A program made the translations under genes and the position numbers. Shown here in pieces: positions 2,941 to 11,425 of a DNA stretch of 11,425 nt (position 1 is its first letter; each line of letters begins with the position of its first letter). Source of the DNA: Bacteroidota bacterium (GTDB taxonomy: Bacteria > Bacteroidota > Bacteroidia > JACCXN01). The notes beneath the pieces are model-generated. The model saw nothing but the letters and a program-made list of their open reading frames with translations. It had not been told where the DNA came from and did not search any database. The stretch lies in assembly GCA_013696965.1 (NCBI GenBank), contig JACCXN010000031.1, positions 1-11,425 of the forward strand. Direction: 5' to 3'.

Positions 2941-3384
2941 TTAAGGATTTGGCAATTGATTAATCAAAACCCAGTAAAACCCGACCTCTTTTACAACTTT
3001 TGCAAACTGATCAAATTCCATTGGCTTTACAATGTAGCTATTTACTCCCAATTCATAGCATTTTTTAATATCGGGATCTTCCCTTGAAGATGTAAAAATT
3101 ACTACGGGAATATTTTTTGTGAGGTTATCTGCTTTTATCTTTTGCAACACTTCAATGCCATCCACTTTGGGCATTTTAAGATCTAATAATATTAAACAAG
3201 GGAAATTATCGGTACTTCTATCAGAAAAAGACCCTTTGGAAAAGATAAAATCCAAGGCCTCTTCTCCGTCTTTAACATGTATAATATTATTGGCCACTTT
3301 GTCTTGTTTAAGGGCCATAATAACAAGTTTTGCATCATTTGGATTGTCTTCTACAAGAAGAATCTCTTTTTGGTAAATATCCAT
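2941..3384 (-). CDS. Stand-alone response regulator, Rcp1-like receiver
   Basis: This 147-residue protein is a single receiver domain with no output domain. It accepts phosphate from a histidine kinase and probably acts by binding other proteins or as a relay step. The acidic pocket is Glu12-Asp13 (LLVEDNPND), the phospho-acceptor is Asp68 in LLDLKMP, the switch Thr is Thr98 and the conserved Lys is Lys120 in IVKP. The long loop before the acceptor and the C-terminal [10 protein letters not shown] tail are typical of the Rcp1 family, the receivers paired with phytochrome-like kinases. The kinase transcribed just upstream (3761-5638) has a phytochrome-type catalytic domain and is the likely partner, but a mobile element now lies between them, only 20 bases before this ATG. 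Its transcription may depend on read-through or on a promoter inside that element. The pairing is inference; the receiver call is firm. Confidence 0.95.
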
Positions 3385-3395
3385 TTTTTTATATG

Positions 3396-3648
3396 TTTTT
3401 TTATCATTATTGTCCGGCTAATTTTCAGGCCGCTCCTACAGAGCTTGTTTTTTTTGGCAATGCTTTTTACAAACAGTTCACTCCTACGGAGTTTAAATAA
3501 AAAACAGTTCCATGGGAATGGCCTGTTTATAGAAAACAAACCCAATGGAAAAACCAAGCCCCATTATGGGCGGCCTGTATAAACATTGGTAAATTAAGCC
3601 TTCCGTTCAGATAACTGAATTTATTTCGGACACCAATGTTTTTTTTAT
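3396..3648. mobile_element. MITE-B, a second small non-coding element with related ends
   Basis: The element at 3405-3638 begins CATTATTGTCCGG (11 of 13 bases as in MITE-A) and ends CGGACACCAATG (10 of 12 as in MITE-A). Both flanks carry TTTTTTTAT (3396-3404 and 3640-3648). The one-base offset on the right is explained by an extra T in the run, so this reads as a 9 bp target duplication. The interior is unrelated to MITE-A and rich in short palindromes: GCTCCTACAGAGC, ACTCCTACGGAGT, CCCATTATGGG, and a terminal hairpin with stems 3582-3590/3632-3640 and 3606-3610/3615-3619 followed by a T-run on the plus strand. There is no coding capacity. It separates the membrane kinase gene from the receiver gene. 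Confidence 0.7.
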
Positions 3649-3760: not shown

Positions 3761-5638
3761 CTAATCAGGCAGGGAAAAATAAAACCCAGCTCCTTTATGC
3801 AGTTCTCCCTCTGCCCATACCTTCCCTCCATGCCTGGAGATAATTTTTTTTACAATTGCAAGCCCTATACCAGTTCCTTCAAATTCCTCCTGAGAGTGCA
3901 ATCTTTGAAATACCCCAAAGAGTTTTCCATAGTATTTCATGTCAAAACCAACACCGTTATCTTTTATATAATACACTGTTTCTTCATCCTTCCGATAAGA
4001 TCCGATTTCTATAACTGGGTTGGGCTTTGGAAAAGAATATTTTAATGCGTTGGTGATCAAATTTATCCACACCTGTCGTATTAATGTGCTATCGCATCGG
4101 GCCAAAGCAAGATCCTTAACAGTAATCTTTGCTGTATATTTACCCTGAGATAATTTTAAAATTTCATCAAGGGCTTCTTTTGCAAGGGCTGTCATATCTA
4201 CATTTGATTTTTCTAAATCTTTTCTTCCCAATCGGGAAAAAGCAAGCAGGTCATCAATCAACTTACCCATTCTTACTGCTTCATCCACTATTATTTGTAA
4301 TAGCTCTTTCCCTTCTTCATCAAATTTATCCTTATACTTTTCCTGGATGATACGGGTAAAAGCATTAATGCCACGAATTGGGGCACGCAAATCATGCGAT
4401 ACGGAATAAGAAAAGGCCTCCAGTTCTTTATTGGCATTTTCCATCAACTTTATATTTTTTTCCAATTCCTCTGAATTTTGCCTAATCGTTTGCTCGGCCA
4501 TCTTACGTTCTGTTATATCATCTGATATTCCCATTAAATATGCAGGGTTGCCATTATCATCCATTAAGGCGATTTTTTTGGTGTGAAGCCATCTCTTTCC
4601 TTTATACTTTGTAATAATGGGTTCTTCCAGAATCTCATAGACTTCATTTTGTGAAAGCACCTCTTTATCCTTGGCTGAAAAGTAATCTGCTTGTTCTTTT
4701 GAAAAGAAATCGTAATCGTTTTTTCCAATCAAATATTCTTTGGAATATCCCAATAACTCTTCCCCTGCTTTATTAAGGCTTACAAAACGAAGTTTATTTG
4801 CATCCTTTACAAATACCATATTGGGAATGTTTTCCAGAATAGAATTGGTAAAAGCAAAGTTTTGTCTTACTATTTTTTCACTTTCCATTAATTGTTTTTC
4901 TACCTTTTTTTGTTCTGTAATATCACGGATAAAACCAATGAAAATATATTTGTCTTTGATTTTTGAGGGTGAAATGCTCAAAGCCACATCAAACTCTTTA
5001 TTTTGCCTGTTGATTGCCTCTATTTCAATGGTTTTATGAAGTACAGGCCCTTCGCCTGTTTTAAAAAAATGTTTTAACCCTCTGTTATGTGCCTCGCGGT
5101 AGCGTTCTGGAATTATAGTTTCACTCAGGGTCTTGTTCATTACTTCTTTTTCTGTCCAGCCAAAGAGAATTTCAGCTTTTGGGTTCCACTTAATTATTTT
5201 TCCCTGCTCATTAATTACTATTACTGCATCAGGGGCATTCTGGAATATAATTTGGATTTTCTCTTCATTTTCTTTGCTAATTTTTATTTTTGATTCCAGC
5301 TCGTCCTGAATCTGTTGTTTAGCCTTATCTTTTTTGATAAGATCAGAAATTGTTCGTGTATTCACCCAAACAACTAAATTTACAAATAAAGCAATAGTAA
5401 AATATAAAATTCCTGTTATAAAAATACGTTGTTCAATATTTCCAGAAAAAACAAAGAAAACATAAACAATATACCCCACAGCAAATAATAGAATGAACAA
5501 GTTTAATATTTTCCATATTTTCAACTCCTTGTTACTTTTATTAAGTATATGCAAAATTGCATGAGTCTTTAATCCGGAAATTATCAAGGCAAAAAAACCT
5601 AAGCCTATTAATACTAAGGCAATATCTTTTAATTCCAT
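3761..5638 (-). CDS. Membrane-anchored double-PAS histidine kinase, phytochrome-type catalytic core
   Basis: This 625-residue sensor kinase is predicted to sit in the inner membrane. Three hydrophobic segments lie near residues 6-24, 43-65 and 72-93, with almost no periplasmic loop, so sensing is probably in the membrane or cytoplasm. A helical linker (about 95-130) leads to PAS1 (about 130-244, ending RDITEQKK) and PAS2 (about 262-378, ending DDITERK). A coiled coil follows, then HisKA with His415 in SHDLRAP. The HATPase domain has N-box Asn530 (NLITNALKY), G1 DNGVG at 560-564 and G2 GTGIGL at 588-593. The stretch around YYGKLFGVFQRLHS is characteristic of phytochrome-like kinases, although no GAF or PHY domain is present. 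The start ATG sits directly before the first hydrophobic segment. The likely partner is the Rcp1-like receiver at 2941-3384, separated from it by MITE-B. The kinase call is certain; the stimulus is unknown. Confidence 0.95.
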   Translation of the reverse strand: MELKDIALVLIGLGFFALIISGLKTHAILHILNKSNKELKIWKILNLFILLFAVGYIVYVFFVFSGNIEQRIFITGILYFTIALFVNLVVWVNTRTISDLIKKDKAKQQIQDELESKIKISKENEEKIQIIFQNAPDAVIVINEQGKIIKWNPKAEILFGWTEKEVMNKTLSETIIPERYREAHNRGLKHFFKTGEGPVLHKTIEIEAINRQNKEFDVALSISPSKIKDKYIFIGFIRDITEQKKVEKQLMESEKIVRQNFAFTNSILENIPNMVFVKDANKLRFVSLNKAGEELLGYSKEYLIGKNDYDFFSKEQADYFSAKDKEVLSQNEVYEILEEPIITKYKGKRWLHTKKIALMDDNGNPAYLMGISDDITERKMAEQTIRQNSEELEKNIKLMENANKELEAFSYSVSHDLRAPIRGINAFTRIIQEKYKDKFDEEGKELLQIIVDEAVRMGKLIDDLLAFSRLGRKDLEKSNVDMTALAKEALDEILKLSQGKYTAKITVKDLALARCDSTLIRQVWINLITNALKYSFPKPNPVIEIGSYRKDEETVYYIKDNGVGFDMKYYGKLFGVFQRLHSQEEFEGTGIGLAIVKKIISRHGGKVWAEGELHKGAGFYFSLPD

Positions 5639-7494: not shown

Positions 7495-7683
7495 AGGCTG
7501 CTTTATTGGTTTTTATACCCAAATTCAATGCCATTAATAATTTGGATAAATAACAACTGCCACCACAGCTAATAATTCAACGCTTATTTTTAAAATGGTA
7601 AACTCGGGAGAGTTTGATAAATGTATGGCATATCGGCCAGGAAAATGACTGTATATTAGTGCTATATCTTCGCTATCAATACT
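7495..7683. other. Leader region of the hybrid kinase gene
   Basis: No gene seen. A reading frame that crosses this stretch runs into the mobile element and looks fortuitous. The sequence next to the element (7673-7683) does not match the expected left end of MITE-A, so this side of the insertion has been altered or lost. Confidence 0.45.
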
Positions 7684-7865
7684 GGTAAAATATATGAGAT
7701 TCCTCCCTACGGTCGGAATGACAGGCTTTTTAAGTCTTTTGTGAGAGGGAGGGGTTAAGATGCGCAACTTAACCCCTCCCTCTCATTGATATAACTGAAC
7801 CCCTTGTCTTTCCGAATGGAGCGAAGAGAAATGAGGAATCTCTATCCTTTTCCCGGACAACAGTG
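7684..7865. mobile_element. MITE-A copy 2, inverted relative to copy 1, one end missing
   Basis: About 182 bases align to the reverse complement of 2380-2579 at roughly 90% identity by eye. The right end, CCGGACAACAGTG (7853-7865), is intact. The left terminal repeat is absent: the match starts at GGTAAAATATATGAG and the 11 bases before it differ. The centre is a perfect 18 bp hairpin (7742-7759 and 7768-7785, loop of 8), shorter at the tip than in copy 1. The base after the intact end begins TTTATAAAT, the probable target sequence. It lies 19 bases after the stop codon of the receiver at 7885, so its hairpin may double as that operon's transcription end. Confidence 0.85.
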
Positions 7866-8301: not shown

Positions 8302-9542
8302 AGGAATTTTGCTTTAGGTTTTTGGATAGTGAAATAAAATACGCTTCCCTTTCCGGTTTTAGATTCTACCCAGATTTTCCCTCCGTGCATTTCAACAATT
8401 TTCTTACATTCAGCCAGTCCTATACCTGTTCCTTGGTAAACATCTTTATTGTGCAGTCGCTGAAAAATCACAAAAATTTTATCATAATATTTTTTGTCTA
8501 TTCCAATTCCATTATCTGTTATTGCAAAAAGCCATTCTTTATTTTCCTCTTGTGCTGTAATGTTGATAATTGGGGGTGTATCTTTTTTTCTGAATTTGAT
8601 AGCATTACTGATAAGGTTTCGAAAAAGAAATTTTAATTCTGTAGGAAAGCTGTTAATTACGGGCAATTGTACTGAATGTATTTCTGCTCCGCTTTCCTTA
8701 ATAGAATTGGCCAAATCATTTAGCACCTCCTTTAACAGTGTATTGCAATTGACTTCTTCTCTATTTAAATCTTTTCCTATTCTTGAATAATTCAATAAAT
8801 CTTTGATGAGTGTCTGCATCCGACCTGTTGCAATGCTTATAAAATCCAGAAACTGATCGGCCTCTTTATCTAATTTCCCTTTGTAATTTTTATGAAATAA
8901 ACCTACATAATTGGCAATGGTTCTTAATGGTTCTTGCAAATCGTGTGAAGCAATAAATGCAAATTGTTCAGTTCCTTTGTTAGCCGTTTCAATTTCAATT
9001 ACTTTTTTTTCTAATTCGGAGTTCATTCGATGAATTTCTTTTGCACGGTCGTAAATATCCATTTCCATTTGCTCCTTTAATTCGCCGGCTGCAATATCTT
9101 TCAGGGCAAGTTCATTTTTTATTTTAACATATTCAGTAACATCTTCAACACGGTGAATGATGTAAGCAACTTCCTCTTTTGAATTCAACACGGGTTTATT
9201 CAGAGGACTCCAATATCTTATTTCAAATGCTCCATCCGGTTTTCGAATATCATACTTTTGAACTGCCATCGTATGAGTGGCTTTGTTTTTAAGAACATAA
9301 TTTAATGAAGCCCGCAAATTAGAAACACCATCAGCAGAATGATCATCCGGATTATCGGGGAATATTTCAAACATTCCCTTACCAATAATTTCATTCCGTT
9401 TGGTCATAGACGCATGTTCATAAGCATCGCTTAACGCAAAAATTGTAAAATCAGGTAGTAAAATGATATATAATCCCGGGATCGCCTCAAAGAGGGATTT
9501 AAAATCAATTCCAGATTTATTCTTCATTTCATGCTTTTTCAT
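8298..9542 (-). CDS. Soluble single-PAS histidine kinase
   Basis: I place the start at ATG 9542, giving 414 residues. A TTG at 9551 is in frame but less likely, and an ATG at 9527 is possible. The PAS domain is about residues 12-138 (EDVTEY near its end). A long coiled coil (about 139-190) leads to HisKA with His200 in ASHDLQEPL. The HATPase domain has Asn313 (NLISNAIKF), G1 DNGIGI at 343-348 and G2 GTGIGLA at 371-377. No membrane segment is present, so it acts in the cytoplasm. Its stop overlaps the start of the receiver gene (ATGA), which is the expected phosphate acceptor. The kinase core is closely related to that of the partial kinase at 10712-11425, so the two kinase-receiver pairs are paralogous modules. 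Upstream lies a 109-base gap with a 9 bp dyad and a TAACTTTG box. The signal sensed is unknown. Confidence 0.95.
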   Translation of the reverse strand: MKKHEMKNKSGIDFKSLFEAIPGLYIILLPDFTIFALSDAYEHASMTKRNEIIGKGMFEIFPDNPDDHSADGVSNLRASLNYVLKNKATHTMAVQKYDIRKPDGAFEIRYWSPLNKPVLNSKEEVAYIIHRVEDVTEYVKIKNELALKDIAAGELKEQMEMDIYDRAKEIHRMNSELEKKVIEIETANKGTEQFAFIASHDLQEPLRTIANYVGLFHKNYKGKLDKEADQFLDFISIATGRMQTLIKDLLNYSRIGKDLNREEVNCNTLLKEVLNDLANSIKESGAEIHSVQLPVINSFPTELKFLFRNLISNAIKFRKKDTPPIINITAQEENKEWLFAITDNGIGIDKKYYDKIFVIFQRLHNKDVYQGTGIGLAECKKIVEMHGGKIWVESKTGKGSVFYFTIQKPKAKFL

Positions 9543-10712: not shown

Positions 10713-11425
10713 TATATAATTGTTTTAGGAATTGTAAAATAAAATGCACTCCCTTTTCCAAGTTCTGATTCAACCCATATTTTTCCTCCGTGCAGTTCAA
10801 CAACTTTTTTGCAGTTAGCCAGCCCTATTCCTGTTCCGGGATATTCTGCCCGAGTGTGGAGTCGCTGAAAAATTACAAAAAGCTTATGATAATATTTTTT
10901 TTCTATTCCGATGCCATTATCCTTTATTGCGAAAAGCCATTCCTTTTCTTTGTCTTGTACTGTAATATTTATAAGTGGATCCATTCCATCTTTTTTATAT
11001 TTTATCGCATTGCTTAAAAGATTTTGAAAAACAGATTTTAAATGGACGTAGCCGTTTAAAACGGGCAATTTATCAGAATGAATTTCTGCACCGTTTTCTT
11101 TGATGGATAGTGCGAAATCTTTTAAAACTTCGTGCAAAATTTTATCGCAATCTATTTCTGATATAGCTATATCTTTTCCTATTCTAGAATATTCGAGCAA
11201 ATCCTTAATGAGTGCAGACATACGTGCTGCGGCTTCAATGATATAATTCATATATTCATTTGTATCCTCATCTTTGTTGTTGTTCTTTTTTGCTAATAAA
11301 CCGGTATAATTTGAAATGCTGCGTAATGGTTCCTGCAAATCGTGGCTGGCAAAAGAATTGAAGGAGGCAAGTTCAGCATTGGAGCGTTCAAGTTCTGTAT
11401 TTTTTGTATTGAGTTCTTGCGTGCG
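10712..11425 (-). CDS. Soluble histidine kinase, N-terminus cut by the window edge
   Basis: The frame is open from the right edge to TAA at 10712-10714, giving 237 visible residues that hold the whole transmitter. A coiled-coil end (NTELERSNAELASF) leads to HisKA with the phospho-acceptor His in ASHDLQEPLRS (visible residue 28). The HATPase domain follows with N-box NLLSNAIKY, G1 DNGIGI and G2 GTGIGLA. The sensor part lies outside the window and is unknown, and a start at the internal TTG at 11338 would cut the catalytic histidine off, so it is not the real start. The transmitter is clearly homologous to that of the kinase at 8298-9542, more than half identical by eye. The stop overlaps the next gene's start (TAATG), and that receiver is the expected partner. 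Confidence 0.94.
   Translation of the reverse strand, partial: RTQELNTKNTELERSNAELASFNSFASHDLQEPLRSISNYTGLLAKKNNNKDEDTNEYMNYIIEAAARMSALIKDLLEYSRIGKDIAISEIDCDKILHEVLKDFALSIKENGAEIHSDKLPVLNGYVHLKSVFQNLLSNAIKYKKDGMDPLINITVQDKEKEWLFAIKDNGIGIEKKYYHKLFVIFQRLHTRAEYPGTGIGLANCKKVVELHGGKIWVESELGKGSAFYFTIPKTII

Follow-up and report, generated by a model that had tools for sequence, protein, structure and literature searches.

Within the Bacteroidota, the closest described counterparts of the element reported here are the short, intergenic and non-autonomous miniature inverted-repeat elements (MITEs) BrickBuilt and MITE464/PgRS of P. gingivalis, where several interiors occur with similar ends and where BrickBuilt has trapped a foreign repeat module, a 23-nt minisatellite, between inverted ends (GAGACCTTTGCA) like those of the known insertion sequences ISPg1 and ISPg9 (PMC4596501). 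The ~240-bp MITECca01 of Cardinium is likewise derived from an insertion sequence (IS) by its ends, which are of the IS982 type, and the passages of its description consulted mention no hairpin array of the kind treated below (PMC9769881). A second group of comparable systems comprises the REP/BIME/REPIN repeats served by TnpA_REP (RAYT) and the subclass 2.6 "atypical structures" of Bacteroidetes, which are short hairpins of intergenic regions, each with a conserved foot, that are arranged in opposite orientations and also lie beside Y1 transposase genes (PMC6006769, PMC3733652). Finally, the IS elements of IS4 type that combine DUF4372 (PF14294) with DDE_Tnp_1 share the end consensus CAYTRSTGTCCGG(T)TAAA and a 9-bp target duplication, and carry their own transposase gene.

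The segment at positions 3405–3638 of the window (herein the whole analyzed stretch of Bacteroidota DNA, 11,425 nt in length) joins features of these systems. It resembles BrickBuilt in being short, intergenic and flanked by inverted repeats that belong to a known IS type, and the P. gingivalis MITEs as a set in that several interiors share such ends; its ends (CAYTRTTGTCCGG) are different, however, and what it encloses is a series of hairpins in fixed order with a link to Y1 genes. The hairpin units share the general plan of the REP family but have the foot CAGGYC/TATCA rather than GTAG/CGTC, are paired at a pitch of ~50 bp, are tied to Y1 proteins of subclass 1.2 and are enclosed in a DDE-type shell, and the element differs from the DUF4372 IS in having no transposase gene. 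We assign a probability of roughly 0.85 to the reading that 3405–3638 is a non-autonomous, two-layer MITE in which terminal repeats of the IS4 type (DUF4372+DDE) surround a four-hairpin core of the Y1 type; as such, it is a hybrid of two known kinds, a DDE-type MITE shell and a Y1/REP-like core.

The 234-bp segment is bounded by 13-bp imperfect inverted ends, the left at 3405–3417 on the plus strand (CATTATTGTCCGG) and the right at 3626–3638 on the minus strand (CATTGGTGTCCGA; plus-strand CGGACACCAATG at 3627–3638), which agree with each other at 10 of 13 bases, as expected for the IS-type terminal repeats of a MITE; the left end matches both the ends of the DUF4372 IS elements and those of the multi-copy family described below. 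An earlier note on this DNA had likened the two ends to those of a neighboring element, MITE-A, at 11 of 13 and 10 of 12 bases, and both counts hold, as does its remark that the interiors differ: the interior is unrelated to that of MITE-A and is itself a structured, recurring hairpin module. By itself, the end pair is weak evidence, since its chance occurrence at a spacing of 100–400 bp is not very rare (23 such pairs in 200 shuffled windows vs. 2 in the real window). The 9-bp duplication in a T-run that the note had also proposed survives in part: a probable left copy (TTTTTTTAT) lies at 3396–3404 and a probable right copy (TTTTTTTAT) at 3640–3648, separated from the element end by an extra T (3639), so that the flanking 9-mers are alike at nine of nine positions once one T of the run is counted as an addition on the right, whereas those that directly abut the ends (TTTTTTTAT and TTTTTTTTA) agree at only seven of nine. 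A transposase acting in trans would have cut at the IS4-type ends, pasted the element and left a 9-bp target duplication, and the empty site would then be ATATGTTTTTTTAT and TTCAAAAACC joined with a single TTTTTTTAT. At less than ~300 bp the element has no coding capacity for a transposase, and the frames that overlap it are all short and have no known relatives. It is present once in its own genome, had no Rfam match at gathering thresholds, no plasmid match by blastn and no match in two IMG/VR pattern scans, and literature searches with sequence strings returned no description of it.

Between the ends lie four hairpin units in the order +a +b -b -a, spaced at ~50 bp, with stems of 4–5 bp and the foot CAGGYC. 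Unit +a (3426–3444, plus strand) consists of CAGGCC followed by GCTC-ctaca-GAGC and is homologous to units in the loci L038 and L040, in the multi-copy family and in the flanks of Y1 genes; unit +b (3465–3492, plus strand) consists of TTTACAAACAGTTC followed by ACTCC-tac-GGAGT and includes an interior 24-mer that recurs exactly in three other Bacteroidota genomes, on four contigs in all. In plus-strand reading, unit -b (3508–3534, minus strand) appears as TTCC-cat-GGAA with GGCCTGTTTATAG on its far side, and unit -a (3559–3577, minus strand) as cccATAATggg with the foot GGCCTG. The sequence (C)TACAAA precedes unit b, and a long arm (3578–3625) joins the array to the right end. Wherever clusters contain both orientations, two plus units are followed by two minus units, mostly 49–53 bp from one neighbor to the next. 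Both sides of the stem change between units: the covariation score is 0.518 (0.262 when shuffled) and 98% of stem cells are paired in the unit alignment, as opposed to 26–69% when it is slid, although the unit set was chosen partly through perfect stems, which favors the covariation result. The same selection led us to drop the argument that a lack of G-T pairs points to DNA rather than RNA. The units are repeated in opposite orientation, as in REPs and REPINs; because the sequence directly 5' of the stem is the foot CAGGYC(G) and not a GTAG/GGAG (or CGTC) guide, we do not file them as canonical REPs.

Multiple copies, as expected of a MITE, are found in the Bacteroidales MAG UBA8908 (herein G295). 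One of its contigs (L037) begins inside a copy of the element that bears the outer end TATCGGATACTAATG, and a 95-base query from the element finds 20 places in this genome by BLAST. The copies with both ends are 236–275 bp long (234 bp for the window element) and align with it from end to end at 60–65% identity over ~230 columns, whereas shuffled sequences reach 46% on average and 54% at most. They share a plan that consists of an end, an arm of ~65 bp, four hairpins, an arm of ~12 bp and the other end, such that the asymmetry of long and short arms recurs; a single copy (L150) deviates in having a longer short arm. At least four copies are flanked by exact 9-bp duplications (AAAATTAAT, ATAAACAAT, TTAAAGTAT and ATAAAATAA), and no open reading frame of at least 100 amino acids overlaps any of the six copies checked. 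This co-linear, multi-copy family with its exact duplications clearly identifies the window element, despite its single copy in its own genome, as a mobile unit with defined ends, independently of the doubtful T-run, and is the decisive evidence for its mobility; a chance origin of the IS4-like ends was dropped on the same grounds. In four of the copies (L154, L156, L157 and L163) one unit has its stem interrupted by an insert of 21–22 bp (AGCCTG(T/C)CCCGCC..GCGGG..), which is itself a hairpin. The insert lies directly behind GTA(G), at an equivalent position in each of the two different units affected, and resembles a second repeat, of GTAG type, that has gone into the first.

The assignment of the shell to the IS4 type is strong. 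We scanned elements with DUF4372 (PF14294) and a DDE transposase from the same bacterial class for bracketing ends with duplications of 8–10 bp; nine were solved cleanly, and the duplication was exact and 9 bp long every time. Their ends include CACTGCTGTCCGGTTAAG/CACTGGTGTCCGGTTAAG (L109), CATTAGTGTCCGGTAAAA/CACTGCTGTCCGGTAAAA (L111), TATTGCTGTCCGGTAAAA on both sides (L126) and, as a further example with an exact 9-bp duplication, CACTAGTGTCCACTAAAA; the end sequence that the window element matches is CAYTRSTGTCCGGTTAAA. MITE-A itself (2380–2579) has the same type of end (CACTGTTGTCCGG) around an unrelated interior, and two of its copies have exact 9-bp duplications (ATTTCTATT for the copy at 2380–2579, and ATTTCAAAT), as does a third MITE of 157 bp in the same genome (L008:566–722, G000:C6; TTTCTGAAT). 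Together with the 3405–3638 element, MITE-A and this third MITE thus bring the number of different interiors with this type of end in the genome to at least three. Contigs C32 and C43 have additional single ends of the form CATTAATGTCCGGTAAAA, and the window holds a second copy of MITE-A (7667–7865) that is inverted relative to the first and has CAATACTGGTAAAATA instead of CACTGTTGTCCGGTAAAATA at its damaged left end.

Because the ends of the element match those of the DUF4372 elements with their 9-bp duplications, an enzyme of the DUF4372+DDE class is, judging by these sequences, the likely mover. The suggestion in the earlier note that one transposase may move both MITE-A and this element fits the ends and duplication length shared among MITE-A, the L008 MITE and the DUF4372 IS, but the mover itself we only infer, because a search for a DUF4372 gene in the genome of the window and in G295 found none; it may no longer be present, may belong to another lineage, or may be related but have no DUF4372 domain that can be recognized. 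Ends and duplication length identical to those of the DUF4372 IS would also be expected if the element were a deletion derivative of one such IS that has lost its transposase gene, and internal shortening does occur among DUF4372 elements (L041, in which the domain content was checked). We consider this improbable: the interior hairpin array occurs independently and beside Y1 genes, the listed frames hold no transposase remnant, and none of the DUF4372 elements among the loci read carries a hairpin array beside its ends. We prefer a two-layer MITE, probably moved by a DUF4372 IS4-type enzyme, with a core that would derive from a Y1 element or from Y1 repeats.

The insertion lies 20 bases before the ATG of a receiver (response regulator) gene (2941–3384, minus strand; Pfam Response_reg, 2.4e-20) and separates it from its upstream partner, a gene for a PAS-PAS-HisKA-HATPase sensor kinase (3761–5638, minus strand), as the earlier note had placed it. 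The two genes lie 376 bp apart; the element plus one target copy make up 243 bp of this distance, and the remaining 133 bp agree with the ~130 bases that the note had estimated for the locus without the element. Its view that a kinase–receiver pair has been split is borne out by relatives with a good receiver match, 10 of 11 of which have a homologous kinase directly upstream and no element, with gaps of 4–53 nt or short overlaps (two cases); these element-less loci are mostly related at the level of the class, with no close empty site seen among them. Since the pair is adjacent in relatives and 376 bp apart here, the insert separates a normally tight gene pair, which illustrates a simple route by which a mobile insert can pull apart a conserved kinase–receiver pair. 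In the sense direction of both genes, the inserted RNA has a predicted fold of -87.8 kcal/mol (z = -7.3 against shuffles), and the insertion would thus add a strongly folding segment to the kinase–receiver transcript and alter expression of the receiver; at this site it could have a polar effect, lead to cleavage of the mRNA or bring in a new promoter. A promoter scan of the spacer gave one weak sigma-70-like match, below the shuffled mean, strict patterns for the Bacteroidota -33/-7 promoter had no match in the spacer, and the search for a terminator-like site inside the element found none.

The same fold, together with the operon order kept in relatives, could be taken to mean that the segment, whatever its origin, is mainly a regulatory RNA or attenuator selected by the host between kinase and receiver. 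Yet the segment stands at this place in no relative examined, neither Rfam nor the terminator search gave it a match, and any array of this kind would be expected to fold in the same way wherever it lies, such that we regard host selection as an unlikely main explanation and the MITE insertion as the preferred one. Elsewhere in the window, two kinase genes are 75% identical over 300 nt (8319–8618 vs. 10724–11023) and each is followed by a receiver gene, which suggests a duplicated kinase–receiver cassette.

The evidence that links the core to Y1 transposases of subclass 1.2 is good but correlative. Hairpin units adjoin an IS200-like gene at two loci (L057 and L069); the L069 protein has a Pfam Y1_Tnp match, and proteins of this type were found in 134 of the 247 genomes searched. 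Across 32 Y1 loci, the mean number of perfect-stem hairpins per 130 bp is 1.47 in the upstream flank and 1.59 in the downstream flank, whereas control sites at a distance of ~800 bp give 0.14 and 0.10 and shuffled sequences 0.08. Their positions are phased, at about -75/-25 ahead of the start codon and +10/+60 beyond the stop codon. The HuH motif is present in 31 of these 32 proteins and the motif Y---Q--HH in 29; the latter is the signature of TnpA_Y1 subclass 1.2 of Bacteroidetes and Cyanobacteria, for which the published survey lists no REPs and which is generally without the typical terminal structures of IS200 (PMC6006769). The literature that we searched, which left out most subscription journals, yielded no paper on these repeats. 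Units with the CAGG foot lie beside Y1 genes in other genomes (L074–L077); they were not seen beside such genes in the genome of the window, where the hairpins at the closest Y1 gene whose flanks were read (L104) carry another foot.

The order of the units bears on how the core arose. Around Y1 genes they run -b -a GENE +a +b and in gene-less arrays +a +b -b -a, and at one locus (L076) a complete array precedes the Y1 gene and +a +b follows it; the order -b -a +a +b, expected of a plain internal deletion of the Y1 cassette, was not seen. Circularly permuted, the order around the genes becomes the gene-less one, which therefore looks like a right-end/left-end junction such as a circular intermediate or tandem copy would contain. 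That only the hairpin array is mobile, as a REP/REPIN-like unit moved by Y1, with the IS4-like ends a chance resemblance, is very improbable even though arrays without a shell exist (L038 and L040) and a similar end pair arises by chance in about one in nine shuffled windows, since all two-ended copies in G295 have the shell at similar distances, four of them have exact 9-bp duplications immediately outside it, which already contradicts this reading, and Y1 transposition (IS200/IS605) is not known to make target duplications.

Within the two-layer reading, we tentatively raise the possibility of a doubly mobile hybrid family, in which the IS4-type DDE shell would move as double-stranded DNA, the core would provide single-stranded hairpins recognized by the subclass 1.2 Y1 protein, and the array would be the captured junction of a circular Y1 intermediate. 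If true, subclass 1.2 Y1 proteins would have an extensive system of REP-like repeats throughout the Bacteroidota that has so far gone unlisted. The element joins two transposition chemistries in miniature form, and it offers these proteins, described without associated repeats, a candidate DNA substrate of fixed geometry. The phased hairpin pairs that flank subclass 1.2 Y1 genes (L074–L105) have lineage-specific feet (CAGGTCG.., TATCACCCC.. and TATCATCCC..), and at two loci of one family (L083 and L084) hairpins of a single orientation (GTCCCGTAGGGACGACCT) run in tandem upstream of the Y1 gene at a pitch of ~50 bp.
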